DNA of 31,214 nt from positions 1 to 31,214 of the IMG/VR virus record IMGVR_UViG_3300032892_000006. One strand, 5' to 3'. The position numbers and the translations under genes are program-made. The notes under the pieces were generated by a model. The model searched no databases and was not told the origin of the DNA. It worked only from the letters and a program-made list of their open reading frames with translations. The first letter of the stretch is position 1; each line of letters opens with the position of its first letter. The stretch is from a virus. Positions 9,094 to 29,970 of the stretch are shown here, piece after piece.

Positions 9094-11349
9094 CTAATCT
9101 GGGTCAATGACGAACAGCCGGTCTACCATTACCGGCGTACCGAAGCCAGCGATGCGGTTGCCAATAGCAACAACAACGTCGTGGTTCGTCGCGATTGACT
9201 CAATTGTACGCTTCAGCTTGGGCATGGTAAAGCGATTGATGCGGAGGTACACTTCTTCGTCTGTTGTGTCGTAGCAACGTAGCGAGCAGTACTCGAGCAG
9301 GTCTGGACGCTTCAGCGTCTTGAGGATATCCTCGGCCTCTTCTCCGGTTCGCGAGCGCCGGTTCTCTACTGCGTCCTGGTAGTTACGCTCCCTGACGATG
9401 CCGGCGTAGATGACTCGCGGGCCTTTACCATAGTTAGCGCGGGCATTAGCTCCGTAGGTCTCTTCAACGTACTCGGCCGCTACCTCGGCACCGTTGTGCG
9501 TAGGGGTGGGGATCATGCGCTGCTTAGCCACCCAGCTGAGCGCGCGGCGCATACGGGCCTCGGTAGCCTTCAGCCCAAAAGGATCGTGCGCAGTCGCGAA
9601 TGTCTCCATGCGCTCGCAAGTCTTCGGGCCGATGCCAGGGATGGCCTGGAGGTGTCCCCAGTTGACAATGGTGCCGGGCGGAATAGCGGCCATGTACTCG
9701 TCAATGTTAACGGCTGTCTTGTCACCTATGCCCGGTATCTGCGCCCAGCCCGCCACGAGGCCCAGATTCGGAACCGATGTCCAGGTCCTCTTCGAGTAGG
9801 CCAGCTTCGGCGGACTCACGGAGATGCCGTGCGATAATGCATCCCGCATGAGCTTGTATTGCTGTTCCTTGTCCGTTGCCTTCGCGAGCGAGGCAGCGTA
9901 GAACGGCAGGGGATGGTGCGTCTTCAGCCATGCAGTCCAGAAAGCCAACATTGAGTAACTGATAGCATGTGCAATGTTGAAAGAATACGTTCCAGAGGTT
10001 ACTAGTCGTTTCCATATCTTATCCGCCAGTTCCGGCTTGATGTTGTGAAGCTGTGCTGCCCCGTCCTGAAATTGAGTGTAGCTCATCTGAAAGGCAGCCT
10101 CGCCTAGCTTCTTGGATATAATGCGCCGGATCTGGCCTACGGAGAACCAGTCAAACCCGCCGATCTCTTTCAGAATTCTGAGGATTTGTTCTTGGTAGAT
10201 GATCTGGCCATAAGTATCACTCGTGACTTGATCCACCAGAGGATGAAGTCGTTCAGGTTTCGCACGACCGTGTCGTACTCCGACATATGCAGCAGTCTGC
10301 CCTGAGAAGAGAGGACCTGGTCGGCTGAGCGCATTGATGTCGGCGATGTGACCGAAGTGATCTGGACAGACATCTCTATTGACCAGTCTGGTAGCGCGAC
10401 CCTCAAACTGGAAGACTCCAGTGACGTCTCCTCTTCTAAATGCATCAATCGTCTCCTTGTCCGTATCGGGAATAGCATATAGGTCTTCAAGAACAAGGCC
10501 AGCCATCTCGAGGCACCGTGCAATCATGCCCATTGTCGAAAGGCCAAGGAAGTCCAGCTTCAGTGCGTCAATGTATTCAACGTCATATTTGTCAATACTT
10601 AGCACCCGTGTTCCATTGCGCTCGTAAACTGCGCATATGTCCGTCAGCGGACTGTTGGCAACGATGAGTCCGGCCGCGTGAACGGACATACCACGCACGT
10701 TCCCTTCCAGCCGAGTCGCCTTCCACAGATCAGGAAATTGGTCAAATATGGCTTTGGCATTAGGGAACATTGCGGCTGTGTCTTCGAGAGAAGTATCAAA
10801 GCGTGAGTCTCCACCGGAGCGCTCGATGATGAGATTGCTGATGGCTTCTTTTGCTGAGAACGGAACTCCATAAACTCGCGCAACATCGACAAGAGAATTC
10901 TTACCACGATAACGAACAAAATTGCCGATATGTCCCACACAATCAGCTCCATACTTAGATGCCAGATAGTTGTAGACATCCTCGCGCCTCTCGTCGCTAC
11001 AGTCAACATCGATGTCCGGTGGGTCGGCCCTAGAAACGTCTAGGAAGCGCTCAAACAGCATCATGGGGTACTTATATGGGTCGATCTCCGTAATCCTCAG
11101 GAGCCACGCTACAACGCTGGCAGCGGTGCTTCCCCGGCCAGGCCCGAACGGGATACCGGCGTCCTTGCCCCAGCGCAGGGCGTCCGAGGTGAATAGGAAG
11201 AAGTCAGCCAGCTCCTTGTCCAGGATCAGCTTCATTTCGTACTTGACGCGGTCGGCATACCAGTCCTGCTGCTCCTGTGGCCTGGCCCCTACGCGCCGGT
11301 ACTTCCAGCCAAACCGGAGCCAGGCCCACAACAGCTCTTCGGCAGTCAC
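9094..11349 (-). CDS. dnaE: DNA polymerase III alpha-type polymerase core (PHP domain encoded separately), 751 aa
   Basis: Replicative C-family polymerase. Visible motifs: GPGRGSTAASVVAW (67-82); PDIDVDCSDERRED with catalytic Asp pair (D112, D114); third catalytic Asp in DALKLDFLGLST (D266); fingers/thumb segments NALSRPGPL and DTYGQIIYQEQIL; tandem helix-hairpin-helix motifs IPGIGDKTA (538) and IPGIGPKTCER (570); a C-terminal OB-like region (about 655-751). The usual N-terminal PHP domain is absent and lies in a separate gene at 12457-13383. The start is GTG 11349 overlapping the exonuclease stop (GTGA), so polymerase and exonuclease are translationally coupled. It is shorter than cellular DnaE even after adding the PHP protein, and no clear clamp-binding peptide was identified. 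Confidence 0.9.
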   Translation of the reverse strand: MTAEELLWAWLRFGWKYRRVGARPQEQQDWYADRVKYEMKLILDKELADFFLFTSDALRWGKDAGIPFGPGRGSTAASVVAWLLRITEIDPYKYPMMLFERFLDVSRADPPDIDVDCSDERREDVYNYLASKYGADCVGHIGNFVRYRGKNSLVDVARVYGVPFSAKEAISNLIIERSGGDSRFDTSLEDTAAMFPNAKAIFDQFPDLWKATRLEGNVRGMSVHAAGLIVANSPLTDICAVYERNGTRVLSIDKYDVEYIDALKLDFLGLSTMGMIARCLEMAGLVLEDLYAIPDTDKETIDAFRRGDVTGVFQFEGRATRLVNRDVCPDHFGHIADINALSRPGPLFSGQTAAYVGVRHGRAKPERLHPLVDQVTSDTYGQIIYQEQILRILKEIGGFDWFSVGQIRRIISKKLGEAAFQMSYTQFQDGAAQLHNIKPELADKIWKRLVTSGTYSFNIAHAISYSMLAFWTAWLKTHHPLPFYAASLAKATDKEQQYKLMRDALSHGISVSPPKLAYSKRTWTSVPNLGLVAGWAQIPGIGDKTAVNIDEYMAAIPPGTIVNWGHLQAIPGIGPKTCERMETFATAHDPFGLKATEARMRRALSWVAKQRMIPTPTHNGAEVAAEYVEETYGANARANYGKGPRVIYAGIVRERNYQDAVENRRSRTGEEAEDILKTLKRPDLLEYCSLRCYDTTDEEVYLRINRFTMPKLKRTIESIATNHDVVVAIGNRIAGFGTPVMVDRLFVIDPD

Positions 11350-11882
11350 GGCAGCACCGCATCATAGCCAGCGCGCGCCATCTCCGCGTCGCCCATCCCG
11401 GTGTGAAGGGCAAATTGCTCTGTGTCGATCCCGATCTTTGCGAACAACTCTCTGGAATTCCATGGCGGCTTCAGGCCGAGCTTGCCAGCGATCAGCGTCT
11501 CGACATCCACTAGGTGGTAGTTGTTAGTGAGGCACCAGCCATGCCGTCGTGCCCAGTACGACAGCATCCGGACATCAAAGTCGATCACGTTGCCGACGAT
11601 GATTGCACGATCAAACAGCTGCGCAATCTTGGCTGCGACCATCTGTGGATCCGCCCACTCCCTGGGCAGGCGCTTATAGAACCTGCCAACTCCGAGCGCG
11701 ATTGGGTCAGCCTTCTCCAGGTCCGGCTTGATGAACCACTGATACGGCCTGTCCAGGTAGGAGCCGAGCCATGGGTCACGGACAATCATCCCGATGTCCC
11801 ATGGCTCGTGGCCCATCCACTCGTACAGGCCAGTGGTCTCCAGGTCAAGGAATATCGTGCGCCTCGGACTATCATCGCTTAT
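11346..11882 (-). CDS. DnaQ-like DEDDh 3'-5' exonuclease with apparent non-canonical ATA (or ATC) start, ~178 aa
   Basis: Proofreading exonuclease of the DEDDh class. Exo I is FLDLETTGL (D13, E15), Exo II lies in GNVIDFDVRML (D103), Exo III is HTGMGDAEMA (H160, D165). Exo I lies upstream of the first ATG in this frame (11816), so the gene must start earlier, yet between the in-frame TAA upstream and 11816 there is no ATG, GTG or TTG. A perfect GGAGGT at 11893-11888 is followed after 5 bases by ATA (11882-11880); an ATC lies one codon before it. The protein is coupled to the polymerase by a GTGA overlap, so it is presumably its proofreading subunit. A sequencing indel just upstream is the alternative explanation. 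Confidence 0.85.
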   Translation of the reverse strand: MSDDSPRRTIFLDLETTGLYEWMGHEPWDIGMIVRDPWLGSYLDRPYQWFIKPDLEKADPIALGVGRFYKRLPREWADPQMVAAKIAQLFDRAIIVGNVIDFDVRMLSYWARRHGWCLTNNYHLVDVETLIAGKLGLKPPWNSRELFAKIGIDTEQFALHTGMGDAEMARAGYDAVLP

Positions 11883-11906
11883 GATGCACCTCCAGTTTTC
11901 TTACCG

Positions 11907-12236
11907 CTACATATCCTGTACGCTGTTGAGGAGGCCGCACTTGGTGCACCGAACATAGCCGGAGTCCTGGCCCTTGGCGCTGTATGTATGGGAAATGAGG
12001 CATCGCCTGCCCAATACCTTGCGGTCCCTTCCGCACCGGGTACAGACTTGCTTCTGCTCGCCATACTTCTTCTTACCGCTGTTCTTCCAGTCGTGCGAGA
12101 ACCAGCAGGCTGCCTTACTTACCTTCTTATTCCGCACAGCACCACACGAACACTTCTGCTGCTGAACTCCGCCGTGCATCTGCCTTCCGTAGTTCTTCCA
12201 TTTGTGAATGTGGTTACGGGTGCTTGAGGCCATCAT
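11907..12236 (-). CDS. Triple Cys/His zinc-binding repeat protein, 109 aa
   Basis: Three repeats of about 30-36 residues share the form H-x-W/Y...G...C-x(1-2)-C-G: HKWKNYGRQMHG...CSCGAVRNKK, then HDWKNSGKKKYG...CTRCGRDRKV, then HTYSAKGQDSG...CTKCGLLNSV. Each supplies His and Cys for a zinc site. The protein is very basic, as expected for nucleic-acid binding. The start is ATG 12236, overlapping the previous stop (ATGA). It sits between the PHP and exonuclease genes inside the split polymerase operon, so a replisome accessory role is plausible, though a mobile zinc-finger insertion is the alternative. Confidence 0.7.
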   Translation of the reverse strand: MMASSTRNHIHKWKNYGRQMHGGVQQQKCSCGAVRNKKVSKAACWFSHDWKNSGKKKYGEQKQVCTRCGRDRKVLGRRCLISHTYSAKGQDSGYVRCTKCGLLNSVQDM

Positions 12237-12466
12237 GTACTCCCATTCGTCTGCTTGGCACCGCATATGTAGTTGCCAAGTCCAGTCTCAGTCCATTCTA
12301 CTGGAGTCCGGCCGGCAAGCGCTACGTCGATCAGCGGGCAATCTTCAGAGTGGTGAATACATCCACGACACGTATTCCATTGCCAGATTTCGAATTGGCT
12401 TCCATTGCAGAAAGCTGGAGGGGAACCGGCAGCCTTATTCCAGAGGTCCTCGAAGCTCATCGCCAT
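12233..12466 (-). CDS. Small Cys-rich protein, 77 aa
   Basis: The start is ATG 12466 (a second in-frame ATG at 12460 overlaps the PHP stop as ATGA). Five Cys and two adjacent His are seen: FCNGSQFEIWQWNTCRGCIHHSEDC and a late YICGAK, compatible with a single metal site. The N-terminus MAMSFEDLWNKAAG is helical. It lies between the PHP protein and the triple-zinc protein, overlapping both, so it belongs to the polymerase operon. No family recognised. Confidence 0.6.
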   Translation of the reverse strand: MAMSFEDLWNKAAGSPPAFCNGSQFEIWQWNTCRGCIHHSEDCPLIDVALAGRTPVEWTETGLGNYICGAKQTNGST

Positions 12467-13383
12467 GGTTGTAGATCCTGTTCTGAGATAGGGTAGCGGA
12501 GCCGGTCTGCCTTGGGAAGCGTCACGTTGCATCGGCTGGCTACCATGACGCTGTTAGCGATAGCCTCGCGTGCAGCCTGTAGGGACAGCCCGGTACGGAC
12601 TAGCCGGAGCTTTAGGTCATCGTCGCTCTCCGGCAGAGTCAAGGGGACCTCATAGTTCCACTCGCGCATGGCGTCGTCGACACTGTGCTTGCCCCTGTGG
12701 ACGGAGTGTAGCACGGCCTGCATCTCTCCGTCCTCGGGCCTCGGGTAATGAACGTCGCACGTCACGACGAGACCAACACCAGCTACCTTAGCCATCCGTT
12801 CATATGCCGGGTTCATCGCGCACGTCCGCTCCAGCTCATAGAACGGCTGGACTTCTATGAAGTAGTCGTCTCCGAAGATGCCGGCGAACCGTTCGATGAC
12901 GAGCATTGCTCGCATGTAACCTTCGGCAGCGTCGGCTGGCTCTGGGATTCCCTTTCCTCCAAGTAGCTCGCAAGCGAGCAGAGAGCCTGAGCAGCCGCTG
13001 AGTACAATGATGCCTTCGCTGTTAACCAGCAGGCTACTGCCTGACACAGTGGGGTGGTAATAGTAGTCAAGGTATGACTGGGTGACGATTTGGTTAAGGT
13101 TTCGGTAGCCATTACTGTCCTTCGCGAGAATGGTCAGATGGTTCTTAAATTGCTGACGGTTGTCGCCTACCGATCCGCAGTAAGCCTCCAGGCCAAATAT
13201 GGGCTTGATGCCGGCCGCGTTTGCAGCCTTCTCAAGCTGGAAATGGCTCGATACACCTCCGTGCTCGGTTAGCGCGATGGCCGAGTACCCCAGCTCCTTC
13301 GCTCGCTCGACATGCTGAGCTGGGGTACCAAATCCATCCCCGAACGAGAACGTGGAATGGTGATGCAGATTAACAAACTCCAT
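12457..13383 (-). CDS. PHP-domain protein, N-terminal part of a split DNA polymerase III alpha, 308 aa
   Basis: This matches the PHP domain and its linker at the start of bacterial DnaE: EFVNLHHHSTFSFGDGFGTP (metal-binding H7 and H9), IALTEHGGV, KPIFGLEAY, NHLTILAKDSNGYRNLNQIVT, GIIVLSGCSGSLL, YFIEVQPF, VVTCDVHYPRPEDGEMQAVLHSV. The last block and EVPLTLPES...A are normally followed by the polymerase palm, which here is in another gene (9094-11349). TEHG replaces the usual TDHG, and the first His of HLHxH is Asn. It may be structural or retain metal-dependent exonuclease activity. The start overlaps a tiny gene by 14 bases. Assembly with the polymerase core as separate chains is inferred. Confidence 0.88.
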   Translation of the reverse strand: MEFVNLHHHSTFSFGDGFGTPAQHVERAKELGYSAIALTEHGGVSSHFQLEKAANAAGIKPIFGLEAYCGSVGDNRQQFKNHLTILAKDSNGYRNLNQIVTQSYLDYYYHPTVSGSSLLVNSEGIIVLSGCSGSLLACELLGGKGIPEPADAAEGYMRAMLVIERFAGIFGDDYFIEVQPFYELERTCAMNPAYERMAKVAGVGLVVTCDVHYPRPEDGEMQAVLHSVHRGKHSVDDAMREWNYEVPLTLPESDDDLKLRLVRTGLSLQAAREAIANSVMVASRCNVTLPKADRLRYPISEQDLQPWR

Positions 13384-23327: not shown

Positions 23328-23360
23328 AGTGTACCGTAACACCACTGGTGCTCGCTACCC
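23328..23360 (-). promoter_or_regulatory. Promoter-like bipartite motif, copy 1
   Basis: Minus strand: GGGTAGCG (23360-23353), 17 bases, then GGTACACT followed by GTAGG (23335-23323). The same two blocks occur at 25230-25261 with a 16-base spacer. TACACT fits a -10 hexamer, 21 bases before the ATG at 23307. The upstream block is unlike TTGACA, so the sigma factor or activator is unknown. Confidence 0.5.
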
Positions 23361-24059
23361 GCTCGCAGTATCTGACGGTACCGAGATCGATGAGCTAGGA
23401 GCTGGCGTAGGTGCTGGCGGAGCAGACGTAGGCGCTGGCGAAACTAGCTGAGTTGGCGCAGGTGTAGGCGGAGCAGACATAGGCGGAGCAGACGTAGGCG
23501 CTGGCTTCGGAATCGGCTGGCCAACCGGGGGCATACTGGTGACCGGAGCTGGCGGCAAGGAGACGCTAGTTGCCGGAGCTGGCACAGGAGGGACCGTACC
23601 GCTTGTGGGTGGCTGCGGAGAGGCCGGGACCGGGACCGGGACCGAGCTTGGCGATGGTTGCAGGCCTGGTGCCGGCTGCGATCCAGGCGATGGCTCAGGC
23701 CCGCTCGTCACGGTAGCGGGAGGGTAAGTAGCCACCGGGCCGGCGGTCGACGCTGAGGCGCTTGCATTCGGACGAAGAATGACAGGCGGTTGAGTCGGCC
23801 GAGCGAGCACTAGCGGAGGGACGCCGGGTAGCGGCTGCGAGCTAGGCGTAGGCGTCGGGACTGCGGCCGCTACCGGCGTCGGCGTCGGCGTCGGAGCCGG
23901 TGATGCATGAATGTGTACGATTGCTGGCGGCAGCACCTGCACCCTTAGCTGCTGAGCATGTAGGTATATGCCCCCGCACACCGCGACGGACATTATTAGC
24001 AGCCCGGTTCCGGTACGCCCAGGATGCTGATGTAGCATTTCATCGCGGATCCAGTGCAC
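23355..24059 (-). CDS. Membrane-anchored Pro/Ala/Ser/Thr-rich protein, 234 aa
   Basis: The start is GTG 24059, placed 5 bases after AGAGG; an ATG at 24038 is the alternative. A single hydrophobic segment (residues 19-35, GLLIMSVAVCGGIYL) is followed by about 190 residues dominated by Pro, Ala, Ser, Thr and Val, including a PTPTPTP run and repeated PAPTSAPP units. This gives a one-pass protein with a long extended domain, probably outside the membrane. Function is unknown; such proteins can span the cell wall. It follows a Cys-containing gene by one base. Confidence 0.65.
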   Translation of the reverse strand: MHWIRDEMLHQHPGRTGTGLLIMSVAVCGGIYLHAQQLRVQVLPPAIVHIHASPAPTPTPTPVAAAVPTPTPSSQPLPGVPPLVLARPTQPPVILRPNASASASTAGPVATYPPATVTSGPEPSPGSQPAPGLQPSPSSVPVPVPASPQPPTSGTVPPVPAPATSVSLPPAPVTSMPPVGQPIPKPAPTSAPPMSAPPTPAPTQLVSPAPTSAPPAPTPAPSSSISVPSDTASG

Positions 24060-25277: not shown

Positions 25278-25312
25278 CAGCAGCCCTGTGCGGGCGGGAC
25301 ACAGGGCTGCTG
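25278..25312 (-). terminator. Strong rho-independent terminator of the conjugation-like unit
   Basis: CAGCAGCCCTGTG (25278-25290) pairs perfectly with CACAGGGCTGCTG (25300-25312), 13 bp with a 9-base loop; on the minus strand it is followed by TATTTTTC. It lies 21 bases after the stop at 25333 and before the next promoter, so it closes the 25333-28725 unit. Confidence 0.85.
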
Positions 25313-25332: not shown

Positions 25333-25557
25333 CTAGCTATAACGATACAGTAAGACTACGGCTACCGTGATGTAAGCCAGCCACCCTACGTTGGCCGCTA
25401 GGCGTAGGGTGGCACCTTGAGCCGCGTGCCGGCGTTCATGACGAGTCACCGGGACCTTGGTCCTTGGCCGTACTAGGCGTAGCACGCGGCGATGAAGGTT
25501 GTGGCTGCGCAACAGATGCCAGGTCGGAAGCAGCAAAGCACAGGCGGCCATCCACAT
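25333..25557 (-). CDS. Small membrane protein, 74 aa
   Basis: A hydrophobic N-terminal segment (residues 2-16, WMAACALLLPTWHLL), a very basic centre (RRVLRLVRPRTKVPVTRHERRHAA) and a C-terminal membrane segment (residues 57-72, VGWLAYITVAVVLLYRY) suggest two membrane contacts around a cytoplasmic basic loop. The ATG is 2 bases after the previous stop. It is the last gene before the terminator in the TraB-like/DUF2637 unit, comparable in position and size to small Spd proteins of Streptomyces plasmids; this is positional inference. Confidence 0.6.
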   Translation of the reverse strand: MWMAACALLLPTWHLLRSHNLHRRVLRLVRPRTKVPVTRHERRHAAQGATLRLAANVGWLAYITVAVVLLYRYS

Positions 25558-25558
25558 A

Positions 25559-25945
25559 TTACTTGACCTTGGCCTTCAGCGTCTTGCCGTCCGGGCTGAA
25601 CGCCAGCTCAACAGCATCCTCGGAAAGCCAGTCAGCCTCAGCCGTAATGGCGTCAGCGTCCTTAACCTTGGCCGGGACCGAGGCCGGAGCTGCCCCAACC
25701 GCAACAACGGTAGCCGGGATCTCGCGTGGCTTCGCCCGGTGCCAGCGAACATACAACATCGCCAGCTTGGTCATGCCAAAGAGGAACGCCAGGGCGAATA
25801 TTGTGCAAGTCGCTATCACCAGCGTCTCAACGATGACCTTGTGGTAGATCCACACTGTGACGATAATACCGGCTAGCAGGAATACCCCAACACCGGCAGG
25901 GCTGCATTGTGCCATACTTACACTCCTGATCATTCGGGTCCTCAT
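25559..25945 (-). CDS. Two-pass membrane protein beside the TraB-like gene, 128 aa
   Basis: Membrane segments at about residues 18-33 (GVGVFLLAGIIVTVWIY) and 40-64 (ETLVIATCTIFALAFLFGM) precede a hydrophilic domain of 60 residues (ATVVAVGAAPASVPAKVKDADAI). The start is ATG 25945, overlapping the TraB-like stop (ATGA) after AAGGAAAGG; an ATG at 25915 with AGGAGTG upstream is also possible. The coupling to the TraB-like ATPase suggests a partner in the same membrane complex. No specific family. Confidence 0.65.
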   Translation of the reverse strand: MRTRMIRSVSMAQCSPAGVGVFLLAGIIVTVWIYHKVIVETLVIATCTIFALAFLFGMTKLAMLYVRWHRAKPREIPATVVAVGAAPASVPAKVKDADAITAEADWLSEDAVELAFSPDGKTLKAKVK

Positions 25946-27639
25946 ACTGCCTTTCCTTTCCTGTTCTCCATGGCATAGTCGCGGAGGTACTGTGGATCGT
26001 CATAGAATCCCTGTACCCATGTTCGCTCCCTGCCATGCACCATGCAGATTTTGCCTGGCCCAGTCATGATTGGTTCGTATGGCGGGCCTATGGTTCTTTC
26101 CCATTGTGGCTTCAGGTAGCCTGCCATGCCAAACACTCCGAATGTCATCTTCAGTGACTCTCCGCCGAGTGCCCTGTCAGTGACATCCTGGAACATCATC
26201 TCACCACGAATTTTAGCCTGGCGACCAAGCCTAAGCAAAGGGCCTATACACTCTGCCCATATTACAGGCTGCGCTGGGTCGCCTGACTTCTTGATATGCC
26301 TGTTGTAATAAGACTTCAGGAATCCTGCCAGGTCGTTGCCTTCGTCAACGAGCATCCATATGTTGTTGAATTCCGTGATCTTGGCACGCTTCTCGCGAAC
26401 GGCTGTATAACGGTCACGCATGATTCCTTCAACTGTGTAGAACATATCCCAGATCTTGCCCATCTCGGACTGCGGATTATCGAACACATGGACTCCGCGA
26501 ATACCTCGGACATGCTCAAAGCTGATCTGCTTCGTGTCGACACAGTAGATATCGGCCTCGGGATCGTTGTAGCATATCTGGGCAGTTTTTGCCAGGAAGC
26601 CAGAGCTTTTGCCAGTGCCGCTGCCGGCGCCACGGCAATGCCAAGGAGTCTCACCGTTGTGGTCGGCATAGTAGACACCTTTGTCCTCCTTGATGCCAAC
26701 GGCAAATGTGCCCGGCTTGGCCATCTGAATTTCGTCAAGGTGGTCCCGGAACAACGCCATGCTCGGCAGACCGCTCATAATCGGGAACCAGCTCACCGTA
26801 CGTGGATTGGTCGTCGTGCTCCAGGAGAACCGGATCTTGCCTTCCGTGTGGCTGGAAATGATCTCCTCAACATTACTGCGCGACTTAGTCAGCGCAGCGT
26901 AGTTGTCCGGCAGCCGCATGATACCCTGGGATTGAGTCAGACTGAGCAGCGTCATCATCTCAGCAGCCGAGCACCCTGTTTCATAGGCCAGCAACCTTGC
27001 GACAGTAGAGACCGGCACATCCGATGCCAGCTGCGGCTCAGTTGAGACAACGGGTTTCGCCGTGGTACTTACCGTCGTGCTGTCGCGCCGGAATACCTCC
27101 TTGGCGCGCTTGGTGACGGTATCTGCCCGGCTGAAACTCGGGCTTTTGCTCTTGATGCTAATGCCATTGCTGTACTGGGCCTGCTTCTTCCGAACGACAA
27201 GGAGCACAAGAACGCAGAAGCCGACAATCAAAGCAACAGTCACCGATATGACTGTTTTGCGCGGATCAATCGCCATGCCGCAAATTACACCAAGGAACAC
27301 CGAAACATAAAGGTTGTTCCGCAATGCTCGGTACGGACGCTTGCTCGGGCTGAAATAGACAGCTATTCCCTCCGGAGTCGTCCGAGACGTGTCCATGCTG
27401 ACGCGTTTCATCCTCTTCTCATCACCGTACGTCTTGCGAGGATCAATATGAAGCCCGGTGTGAAGCTGCCACATTACGCGGTGAAGATGGCTCGGCCGGC
27501 CAGCGTGGCGCCATCCCAGCAGTTCTCGCACATATCCATCGAGAATGGTGCAAAGCGCAAAGGCAGTGTATCCGAGATAGACGATGCCGAAGACGATGCC
27601 TGCTGGCAGGTGAAGTGCCCGCAATACGAAGGCGGTCAT
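25942..27639 (-). CDS. TraB/FtsK-like membrane DNA-translocase ATPase, 565 aa
   Basis: Resembles the septal DNA translocator of actinobacterial conjugative plasmids (TraB/TraSA) and FtsK/SpoIIIE. Three membrane segments lie at about 12-32, 110-124 and 130-149. The ATPase has Walker A GAGSGTGKSS (337-346) and Walker B IWMLVDEGND (427-436), with DIYCVDTKQISFEHVRG and QAKIRGEMMFQDVTDRALGG as further FtsK-type motifs. The C-terminal winged-helix DNA-reading domain of TraB/FtsK is not evident: the protein ends about 45 residues after the last ATPase motif. The start is ATG 27639, 7 bases after AAAGG. Neighbours are a DUF2637-Lsr2 fusion and small membrane proteins. Confidence 0.8.
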   Translation of the reverse strand: MTAFVLRALHLPAGIVFGIVYLGYTAFALCTILDGYVRELLGWRHAGRPSHLHRVMWQLHTGLHIDPRKTYGDEKRMKRVSMDTSRTTPEGIAVYFSPSKRPYRALRNNLYVSVFLGVICGMAIDPRKTVISVTVALIVGFCVLVLLVVRKKQAQYSNGISIKSKSPSFSRADTVTKRAKEVFRRDSTTVSTTAKPVVSTEPQLASDVPVSTVARLLAYETGCSAAEMMTLLSLTQSQGIMRLPDNYAALTKSRSNVEEIISSHTEGKIRFSWSTTTNPRTVSWFPIMSGLPSMALFRDHLDEIQMAKPGTFAVGIKEDKGVYYADHNGETPWHCRGAGSGTGKSSGFLAKTAQICYNDPEADIYCVDTKQISFEHVRGIRGVHVFDNPQSEMGKIWDMFYTVEGIMRDRYTAVREKRAKITEFNNIWMLVDEGNDLAGFLKSYYNRHIKKSGDPAQPVIWAECIGPLLRLGRQAKIRGEMMFQDVTDRALGGESLKMTFGVFGMAGYLKPQWERTIGPPYEPIMTGPGKICMVHGRERTWVQGFYDDPQYLRDYAMENRKGKAV

Positions 27640-27667
27640 GATTGAACCTTTCGTGCTAGGTAAAGAG

Positions 27668-27744
27668 CATTGGCCGGGCATTGGCTCGGCATTGGCCGGG
27701 CATTGGCCGGGCGTTCGGCATTGACATTGGCCGCAGGCATTGGC
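27668..27744. repeat. Intergenic CATTGGC repeat array
   Basis: Exact CATTGGC copies start at 27668, 27679, 27690 and 27701 with an 11-base period, and again at 27725 and 27738; a variant CATTGAC is at 27719. The array fills the gap between the DUF2637-Lsr2 gene and the TraB-like gene. The same heptamer occurs nine times in the upstream gene, so the array may have grown from coding repeats, or may be a protein-binding locus. Confidence 0.75.
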
Positions 27745-28725
27745 TCAGCCTCCGCTAGCGTTTGAGTCACGGTTTGCCTCGTAATACGCCTCAATCGCCT
27801 CAACCGGCATGCGGCCGTGCGTGCCTAGGTCGGGCCAGCCATGCTCCTTGGCCCAGGTACGTATCTCCTTGGGGCTCGCATTACCGAATAGCCGGACGAC
27901 ATTGGGTCGGCCGGCGTCCGCATTGGCCCCATTGGCCGGACGCTGGACGTTTGGCTCGGCATTGGCATTGGCTTTGGCCCCATTGGCATTGGCTGCTTCG
28001 GCATTGGCCGGGGCCGACGTCCCATTGGCCGGGGCCGGTGCCCCATTGGCCGGGGCATTAGGCGCGCTCAGCGGTGGGCTAGCGGCCTTGATCGGACGCC
28101 TAGCGCCATTGCCGGCGACGGCCGGAACGGCATCGGAGGCATTGAGAAGATCCGCAATGCCCGCAGGCACCCACTTGCCGCTACGGTTCTTGCGAGGGAA
28201 CCAGCCATGCGTCAGGGCTAGGGCGATGAACCGCGCGCCAACAATACCTCGCAAGCCGTCAAGCGTGACGAGCGGGAACAGCAGCCATGCCGACAGGCCC
28301 CATTTCGGCAGTGGCGCGGGATACCTCTTGCCCTGGCGTGCTCGGGCCTTCTGGCGCTCTTTCTGCGTCGCCAGGCTGTGAGCCACGACTGCTCCGATCG
28401 GCAGGATAGCCCAGAACAGCCAGGCACCATTCATCTCGTGCCCGATCTTTGCGTGCAGGCTGTTGATGTAAGCGGAGATACCCGCGAATGTGAGGACAAT
28501 GGTCCTAGCCCAGTAGTCGCTGCGCTCGTCCTTGACTGCCTGAATTGAGTAGATACCGGCAAGTAGGGCCACGCCATCAAAGCACGCAGAGGAGCAGACC
28601 GCGACATACAAGGGGACACCCATATGCCGAGCAACAGAGAACAGCGACCAGCCACTCACATACAGGGAAGCGCAAAGAATCACGATCCACAGGGATCGAC
28701 GAGGGAAAGCCTTAAGATAACCCAT
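27745..28725 (-). CDS. DUF2637 (Spd-like) membrane protein fused to an Lsr2-like DNA-binding domain, 326 aa
   Basis: Residues 10-160 match the DUF2637 pattern of Streptomyces plasmid spread proteins: four membrane segments at about 11-31, 40-62, 74-90 and 101-118, with SLFSVARHMGVPLYVAV, CFDGVALLAGIYS and AYINSLHA. Residues 200-275 are an Ala/Asn/Pro-rich linker with ANANA-type repeats. Residues 283-318 (SPKEIRTWAKEHGW..., GRMPVEAIEAYYEAN) match the C-terminal DNA-binding domain of Lsr2, the actinobacterial nucleoid silencer. This predicts a membrane protein with a cytoplasmic DNA-binding tail. The start is ATG 28725 after GGTAGGAG. It directly precedes the TraB-like gene, so a DNA-tethering role in transfer is suggested, not shown. 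Confidence 0.8.
   Translation of the reverse strand: MGYLKAFPRRSLWIVILCASLYVSGWSLFSVARHMGVPLYVAVCSSACFDGVALLAGIYSIQAVKDERSDYWARTIVLTFAGISAYINSLHAKIGHEMNGAWLFWAILPIGAVVAHSLATQKERQKARARQGKRYPAPLPKWGLSAWLLFPLVTLDGLRGIVGARFIALALTHGWFPRKNRSGKWVPAGIADLLNASDAVPAVAGNGARRPIKAASPPLSAPNAPANGAPAPANGTSAPANAEAANANGAKANANAEPNVQRPANGANADAGRPNVVRLFGNASPKEIRTWAKEHGWPDLGTHGRMPVEAIEAYYEANRDSNASGG
27921..28050. repeat. Coding CATTGGC repeats in the DUF2637-Lsr2 gene
   Basis: Nine exact CATTGGC copies (starting at 27921, 27930, 27960, 27966, 27981, 27987, 28002, 28023, 28044) encode the Ala-Asn repeats of the linker (GCC AAT on the minus strand). Phase is kept here, unlike in the 11-base-period array downstream. 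Confidence 0.7.
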
Positions 28726-28760
28726 AGCTCGGCTCCTACCTTGTTTAGGCGTCGGGTCAA

Positions 28761-28801
28761 GGTCCCAAGCCGGTGCCCCCAAAGCAATCCGGCCTGGGAC
28801 C
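28761..28801 (-). terminator. Hairpin between the regulator and the DUF2637-Lsr2 gene
   Basis: GGTCCCA (28761-28767) pairs with TGGGACC (28795-28801), and the stem continues for five more pairs past one mismatch (GCCGG/CCGGC). It lies in the 114-base gap after the HTH gene. No long U-run follows, so it could be a partial terminator or attenuator controlling readthrough into the membrane/TraB genes. Confidence 0.45.
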
Positions 28802-28839
28802 GCTTAGCTGCCTAAGATACCTCCTTTTTGGCGTATTGG

Positions 28840-29373
28840 CTAACCACTCTGCCTAGCAAGCAGTAATTGCACCTTTTTGGCCATATCTGCTAGCACTTCC
28901 CTGTCTTCGGGAGTCAGCAGCTGACAGTAGGCCCGATGCTCTATCAGGCCATCAATTACGCTGGCAGCAGACCGGATGATGGAGTGGATGCTGTGGTCGT
29001 CCTGCGTGTCTTCGCGCGGCTTACGGTTGCCGACTAGGCGCTTCTCATCATCGTCTTCTTCCTCCTCCACCTGTCTCTGTTCCTCTGCCTTCTTCGGATT
29101 CCTAATTTCGTCCGACTGGTATAGTTTGCCGAAGTCTTGCAGCTGCTCGAATGAGTCGAATACATAACCACGTACAATTCCCCAGCAGCGTGACGCCCAG
29201 CACACATGCGTCTGGCTACGGCCTATAGCATCAGCAACTACCTGCTGCGTCTTGCCTGACTGAAGTTCCATCCATATCAGCGAAGCTGCCTCCCAGCGTT
29301 CTGCCGATGTTGCCTTCTCGCGCTGTCCGGCCGTTCGCTCCAGCTCTATGATCCGTGCTATCCTGCTGTCCAT
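28840..29373 (-). CDS. Helix-turn-helix regulator of the conjugation-like unit (candidate), 177 aa
   Basis: Residues about 37-60 form an HTH: LQSGKTQQVVADAIGRSQTHV, with the pattern seen in small phage and plasmid regulators. An acidic, charged linker (KKAEEQRQVEEEEDDDEKR, about 94-112) follows, then a C-terminal helical domain (IHSIIRSAASVIDGLIEHRAYCQLL) that may dimerise. The ATG at 29373 follows GGAGG, and an 18-bp perfect palindrome lies just upstream (29384-29401) in the divergent gap, so autoregulation is likely. KorA-like control of the TraB-like genes is inference from position. Confidence 0.7.
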   Translation of the reverse strand: MDSRIARIIELERTAGQREKATSAERWEAASLIWMELQSGKTQQVVADAIGRSQTHVCWASRCWGIVRGYVFDSFEQLQDFGKLYQSDEIRNPKKAEEQRQVEEEEDDDEKRLVGNRKPREDTQDDHSIHSIIRSAASVIDGLIEHRAYCQLLTPEDREVLADMAKKVQLLLARQSG

Positions 29374-29383
29374 TCCCGCCTCC

Positions 29384-29401
29384 GTTATTACTAGTAATAA
29401 C
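29384..29401. promoter_or_regulatory. 18-bp perfect palindrome, operator candidate
   Basis: GTTATTACTAGTAATAAC is its own reverse complement. It sits in the 51-base divergent gap between the HTH gene and the nuclease gene, 10 bases upstream of the HTH start codon. It is AT-rich against the surrounding sequence, as is typical for a dimeric repressor site, and it would block promoters in both directions. Confidence 0.7.
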
Positions 29402-29424: not shown

Positions 29425-29970
29425 ATGATACAGGCGATAGAAACAGATTATGCCGGATACCGATTCCGCTCGCGACTAGAGGCGCGCTGGGCTGTGTTCT
29501 TTGACACGATAGGTCTGGATTGGAGGTATGAGCCAGAAGGATTCCGCGTCGATACGCCAACCGGCAAGATCAAGTACCTGCCGGACTTCTGGCTCGGAAG
29601 TGGGCACTGGGGCGAAGTCAAGGGATACCTAGACCTGGCCTCGCTGAATCGCCTGTACTCTCTGGCTGTCGGCATGTCCAACTGCGGTAAGGGCTGCGAC
29701 ATGGTCGTGTTCGGTGATGTACCGCGCGCCAATAGCTCACTGTGGCCAGCTCAGCTACACACGCACAGCATAGGGCAGCTGTGGGCTGTGCCCTGGGACA
29801 TTGCTGTGGGCTGCCCGCTACGGACTCGGCCTCGCGTGGCAGTCACCGTTGATGAAGCAACTGCTGGACATCTTACGGACGGTTTCCCTTTCGGGGTGCC
29901 CGACTGGGCCTACGAAGGGCTGTCCGCTGCGCGGCGTGCCCGGTTTGAGTGGGGCGAGCATGGCCGCTAG
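29425..29970 (+). CDS. PD-(D/E)XK nuclease-like protein, 181 aa
   Basis: The sequence YRFRSRLEARWAVFFDTIG, then WRYEPEGF, IKYLPDFWL and WGEVKGYLDL matches the compact PD-(D/E)XK nucleases found in many actinophages: E in SRLEARWA, D in LPDF and E-x-K in EVKG (about residues 18, 53 and 64-66). It may cut DNA or resolve junctions; the substrate is unknown. It is the only plus-strand gene in the right half, divergent from the HTH regulator and under the same palindrome. The C-terminal half (from about 90) is less conserved-looking. Confidence 0.75.
   Translation: MIQAIETDYAGYRFRSRLEARWAVFFDTIGLDWRYEPEGFRVDTPTGKIKYLPDFWLGSGHWGEVKGYLDLASLNRLYSLAVGMSNCGKGCDMVVFGDVPRANSSLWPAQLHTHSIGQLWAVPWDIAVGCPLRTRPRVAVTVDEATAGHLTDGFPFGVPDWAYEGLSAARRARFEWGEHGR

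Follow-up and report, generated by a model that had tools for sequence, protein, structure and literature searches.

The window analysed here comprises the 31,214 bases of IMG/VR virus record IMGVR_UViG_3300032892_000006, which encode tail-related proteins, an endolysin, a DnaE-like polymerase (matching phrog_11165, E 1e-257), an SNF2 helicase, a Sak4-like protein and an exonuclease. A single minus-strand unit running from 29401 to 25278, here called the cassette, carries a palindrome, a helix-turn-helix (HTH) gene, a DUF2637 gene, a gene for an FtsK-type ATPase, two genes for small membrane proteins and a terminator. A first-pass annotation made from the sequence alone had described it as a conjugation-like module of Streptomyces type within a phage. 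Every part that it listed is present and correctly placed, and the setting, beside DNA polymerase, endolysin and tail-related genes, is a genuine phage. The features of the cassette and of the gene that adjoins it are as follows.

29425..29970, plus strand: divergent endonuclease (PHROG 21138, Phage_endo_I-like), adjoining the cassette.
About 29384..29401, no strand assigned: perfect palindrome of 18 base pairs, GTTATTACTAGTAATAAC, the probable operator of the cassette.
28840..29373, minus strand: HTH regulator of 177 amino acids, whose homologues precede DUF2637 in relatives.
27745..28782, minus strand: DUF2637 Spd-like membrane protein with a C-terminal Lsr2-type DNA-binding domain (from Pfam, model and alignment).
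25942..27639, minus strand: putative membrane-anchored double-stranded DNA translocase of FtsK/TcpA fold and pRL2-11 type, 565 amino acids; the open reading frame reaches 27681.
25559..25945, minus strand: small membrane protein of 128 amino acids with two transmembrane segments; nearly all relatives have a homologue in this position.
25333..25557, minus strand: small membrane protein of 74 amino acids with one transmembrane segment; an optional member.
25278..25312, minus strand: intrinsic terminator with a 14-base-pair stem and a TATTTTT tail, closing the unit.

The ATG start of the ATPase at 27639 is backed by alignment, and the protein carries a Walker A motif (GSGTGKS), a Walker B motif (WMLVDEGN) and an invariant GR and Q. 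As a single query it found nothing in Pfam, the PHROGs or the phage collection, and alignment-based scans were required; FtsK_SpoIIIE was matched by nine of ten family members (best 6.9e-6). An AlphaFold2 model (predicted local distance difference test score, pLDDT, 72 overall and about 70-90 in the motor part) superimposed on the FtsK motor with a Z of 25.6 (325 residues, 4.1 Å) and on the conjugation coupling protein TcpA with a Z of 25.1, and TcpA was also the top Foldseek match (7.6e-14). The protein thus combines the RecA-like FtsK motor fold with the Walker A and B motifs of FtsK/SpoIIIE-type double-stranded DNA translocases. The three membrane segments previously assigned to it are found in most relatives and correspond to three long N-terminal helices in the model, but only two hydrophobic segments are clear in the window protein itself.

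We then considered which family of motors it belongs to. Its tblastn relatives are plasmid proteins, with 49 of the 77 records from Streptomyces, and they include pRL2-11 of the linear plasmid pRL2. Profile comparison with the ATPase of a plasmid of NEAU-sy36 (L004) gave an E of 5e-26 and a probability of 99.7%. The corresponding hhalign comparison with TraB of pIJ101 gave only 4e-4 and 36%. In a maximum-likelihood tree, rooted at the midpoint only, the phage ATPases form a branch with 100/100 support that is nested with the plasmid translocases, and TraB lies far apart on a long separating branch. Membership of the TraB family was consequently rejected. On these comparisons the window ATPase belongs to a phage branch within the pRL2-11-type translocases that Streptomyces plasmids encode. 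The plasmid homologues, and those in contigs G011-G013, extend past the motor into a MerR-like winged-helix region, the winged helix being what plasmid translocases use for DNA recognition. Because the phage proteins end after the motor, we call them a diverged phage branch rather than full pRL2-11-type members. Thus, of the earlier description as TraB/FtsK-like, the FtsK-type motor of plasmid-transfer kind stands, and the TraB assignment gives way to a separate, pRL2-11-type branch without the winged helix.

The gene next to that of the ATPase, as for pRL2-11, encodes the DUF2637 protein, which spans the membrane several times and shares a unit with a translocase, as Spd proteins do. Its two domains both exceed the Pfam cut-offs (PF10935, 7e-7; PF23359, Lsr2 DNA-binding, 2e-6), the former bearing out the DUF2637 assignment. 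In the model (pLDDT 63 for the whole protein and about 85 for the helices), four long membrane helices are followed by an extended disordered linker, which leads to a small, helical domain at the C-terminus. The membrane part aligns across nine homologues; the tail is Lsr2-like in most relatives and zinc-finger-like in L023 and L025. Homologues in phages amount to 90 records, all from Streptomyces phages. The idea that DNA recognition was shifted to this tail in phages only had to be softened, as the DUF2637 tails of plasmids and phage-plasmids look HTH-like by eye. Related proteins also lie in other kinds of element. Gene 15 of the Mulchroom satellite (L006), a satellite of a Streptomyces phage, encodes a membrane protein resembling the DUF2637 protein of the window. 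The closest plasmid match (38% identity) is on plasmid unnamed2 of Streptomyces sp. NBC_01335 (NZ_CP108372, L048), a 34-kb circular element with terminase, portal, protease and capsid genes that is probably a phage-plasmid.

The palindrome lies directly upstream of the GGAGG and ATG of the HTH gene, and no palindrome of that length arose in 2000 shuffles, in agreement with the earlier claim of an HTH regulator with its own palindrome. Palindromes that differ from it, with a CTAG core, occupy the same position in L018, L020 and L022; the same test found none in L019, L026 and L002. An HTH homologue lies 5' of the DUF2637 gene in L018, L019, L020, L022, L023, L025, L026, G020 and G022. At the other end of the cassette, small one-segment reading frames resembling 25333..25557 occur downstream in L002 and L023 only, and the terminator, already noted as strong, is the best of the region.

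The first-pass annotation had proposed a search for the same gene order in related phages. Pattern scans recovered further IMG/VR contigs with ATPases 43-54% identical to that of the window, so that the cassette belongs to a group of soil phages. At least ten distinct contigs keep the order endonuclease, HTH, DUF2637, ATPase, small membrane protein, save for G001, in which no HTH gene was found, and for contig ends. Conservation of the block at this level of ATPase identity is far beyond chance. With ratios of nonsynonymous to synonymous substitution between close pairs of about 0.05-0.33, the cassette is under purifying selection. Close homologues of the endonuclease (>50%) were found only in cassette-carrying genomes.

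The wider lineage was gathered by scanning with the exonuclease. Of the genomes retrieved in their entirety, five carry the cassette: G001 and, each with terminal direct repeats, G005, G009, G020 and G022. In five near-complete others (G014, G015, G016, G018 and G019) the HTH, DUF2637, ATPase and small protein genes are absent altogether; terminal repeats are present in G014 and G016 and absent from G015, G018 and G019, which may be incomplete. The five cassette-less genomes share the polymerase, exonuclease, SNF2 and DUF6011 genes with the carriers, and several of their virion-region proteins are 74-81% identical to those of G005. Counting the window, the genes of the block co-occur in six of six carriers and none of five others (Fisher p 0.002, for genomes that are not independent). 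Since the block is missing as a unit from genomes of the same lineage that otherwise match in their polymerase, nuclease and virion genes, it is an accessory unit and not part of core replication or packaging. The polymerases of G014 and G016 are closer to that of G005 (71% identity) than are those of G020 and G022 (66-67%), while in the ATPase tree G005 clusters with G020 and G022; this pattern fits vertical inheritance with loss. The GC content of cassette-bearing genomes is higher (0.58-0.64 versus 0.55-0.59, p 0.009); given the non-independence of the genomes, this does no more than hint at different hosts. Fifty exonuclease loci were also tallied for the cassette; most do not span its place. 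Large-scale module exchange is seen in the same lineage, as G005 and G001/G009 have the same replication half and cassette joined to virion halves of almost no similarity.

In actinobacterial plasmids, TraB moves double-stranded DNA between hyphae, carrying it across mycelial membranes, and Spd proteins have a part in spread within the mycelium (PMC12857230), as the first-pass annotation had stated. Drawing on homology, fold, gene order, co-inheritance, selection and absence from close relatives, we tentatively propose, at a little under an even chance, that the cassette is an accessory DNA-translocation unit derived from actinobacterial plasmid transfer genes, which moves phage DNA across the septa of a mycelial host. 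The hexamer, the pore, septal transfer and the mycelial host are what we infer beyond these observations. The ATPase would assemble into a hexameric ring, with its N-terminal helices as the membrane anchor, and pump double-stranded DNA. The DUF2637 protein would be its four-helix membrane partner, with a flexible Lsr2-type tail (zinc-finger in some relatives) that may hold DNA at the membrane and perhaps compensates for the DNA-recognition domain missing from the phage ATPase. As the winged helix is missing, any choice of cargo would have to lie with this tail or follow from phage DNA being abundant in the course of infection. The small membrane proteins may complete the septal complex, and the HTH protein presumably regulates the unit through its palindrome. 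In an infected mycelium, phage or host DNA would be pushed through cross-walls into adjacent compartments, so that infection could spread within the filament without virion release. A bolder form of this proposal, that virulent phages of mycelial actinobacteria pump their replicating DNA through septa by a captured plasmid conjugation machine, a virion-free route gained and lost with host type, is possible but rather doubtful.

Several points weigh against the septal proposal. All ten phage ATPases stop after the motor and so lack the C-terminal winged helix; some plasmid relatives come from non-mycelial genera (Cutibacterium, Microbacterium and others); no HTH gene was found in G001; confidence in the ATPase and DUF2637 models is moderate; and no paper reporting experiments on the pRL2-11-type ATPases themselves was found. 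Septal transfer by the phage proteins is argued from homology, and the mycelial host from relatives. The absence of a DNA-recognition domain, together with the position of the cassette among replication genes and the replication role that the Geonosis authors suggested for their FtsK-like protein (PMC11536984), would also suit a motor acting inside the infected cell, in genome pull-in after injection, in membrane anchoring or segregation of replicating genomes, or in concatemer resolution. However, the block is lacking in complete relatives that otherwise have the polymerase, exonuclease, helicase and virion genes in common with the carriers, which makes it dispensable for entry, replication or packaging as such, and the DUF2637 partner is a plasmid association; we regard an intracellular motor as rather unlikely. 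The accessory distribution, the membrane proteins and the linked endonuclease (PHROG 21138) of cassette-bearing genomes could instead belong to a membrane complex for superinfection exclusion or against plasmids or host defences, whose motor expels, blocks or processes other DNA. The nearest relatives are nevertheless plasmid translocases, and Pfam and PHROG scans (PADLOC was not searched) gave no resemblance to known defence modules, which leaves this quite unlikely. As a DNA motor in a phage, the ATPase might have been a virion or packaging enzyme, and a firm grouping with packaging ATPases was what the first-pass annotation had named as counting against its own reading. Structure prediction and profile search of 25942-27639 gave the FtsK/TcpA fold and a grouping with plasmid translocases, the relatives encode their own terminase, which the ATPase matches in the Walker motif only, and the ATPase is dispensable. 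A packaging role is in practice refuted and retains next to no probability.

The earlier suggestion of a phage-plasmid fared less well. The transfer genes are of plasmid type, circular assemblies occur among the relatives, G001 and G009 encode a primase-polymerase/AAA protein, and the nearest plasmid DUF2637 match sits on a circular replicon of Streptomyces that also bears phage head genes, all of which could be expected of a true phage-plasmid that conjugates by means of the cassette. The Streptomyces plasmid-phage pZL12 is said, in the title as cited, to combine phage and transfer functions (PMC3583192). Yet no tyrosine integrase or serine recombinase was found in the cassette-bearing lineage, complete genomes included, and no ParA (one family searched, PF13614); a pattern search with the phage ATPases over 84,980 species genomes, which reaches close relatives only, found no relative; and the terminal repeats of the relatives are equally compatible with circular permutation. 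The relatives encode terminase, portal, capsid, protease and tape measure. Without integrase, ParA or a close relative in species genomes, the phage-plasmid reading is not supported and appears very unlikely; the gene content favours non-integrating phages, though these may be maintained outside the chromosome. More distantly, G011 (L012) and G012 (L013) combine portal genes with a distant, winged-helix-bearing pRL2-11-type ATPase and an integrase (serine in G011, tyrosine in G012), suggesting that temperate phages, too, employ motors of this kind. G011 also has a DUF2637 gene and shares virion genes, but not the replication half, with G001 and G009.

Plasmid-type motors are also found in cultivated Streptomyces phages. 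Full-length homologues of pIJ101 Tra occur in YDN12, TP1604, Xkcd426, Geonosis and others (43-46% identity) and in Kradal and Satis (33%), annotated as FtsK-like translocases or as hypothetical; those of YDN12 (KP876465, L043, 54424-56484) and Xkcd426 (KU530220, L044, 62457-64475) match Tra over about 80%. The S. coelicolor phage Dagobah has a homologue of the pRL2-11-type core (36-38%). Cultivated Woodruffvirus-type phages carry true TraB homologues independently, which shows repeated recruitment. In Gilgamesh (L047), an FtsK-like translocase gene (gene 10) overlaps a small membrane protein gene (gene 9), an arrangement like that of the window. Actinophage FtsK-like genes have been mentioned as possible modulators of development (PMC10117723); a proposal of plasmid-type septal transfer for a phage was not found in the open literature searched. 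The spread of phages in multicellular, septate bacteria is little understood, and a lineage that keeps or loses a plasmid-type DNA pump as a unit offers a direct test, with relatives of both kinds at hand. Since the "FtsK-like DNA translocase" genes of cultivated Streptomyces phages can be re-read as likely transfer proteins, the idea is testable now in laboratory strains.

Elsewhere in the window, the DnaE-like polymerase (9094-13383 overall) is divided between genes at 12457-13383 and 9094-11349 that flank an exonuclease-subunit gene, and relatives keep this division into two genes; 23355-24059 encodes a low-complexity protein rich in proline and alanine, which has a hydrophobic segment at its N-terminus and no family match.

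Compared with known systems, the cassette ATPase has TcpA of pCW3 and the FtsK motor domains as its top solved-structure matches, but at about 14-17% identity, and the larger conjugation machine of TcpA is not seen here. With TraB/Tra of pIJ101 and Spd it shares the gene set of an FtsK-fold motor, membrane partners and a regulator; the ATPase nevertheless belongs to a distinct sequence family and lacks the winged helix that in TraB binds clt repeats. YDN12, TP1604, Xkcd426, Geonosis, Kradal and Dagobah likewise have plasmid-transfer-type motors, but the Woodruffvirus motors are homologous to TraB and have no DUF2637 gene annotated beside them, that of Dagobah is a motor core of 309 amino acids only, and none of these phages has the gene order of the window. 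The pRL2-11-type translocases (pRL2, NC_007927; plasmids of NEAU-sy36 and NBC_00239) differ in their C-terminal winged helix, the phage ATPase having its own N-terminal membrane region and separate 100/100 branch. They share with it an FtsK-type motor of about 300 residues at 20-31% identity and invariant Walker and GR motifs and, in pRL2, a DUF2637 gene directly upstream of the ATPase gene, as in the window.

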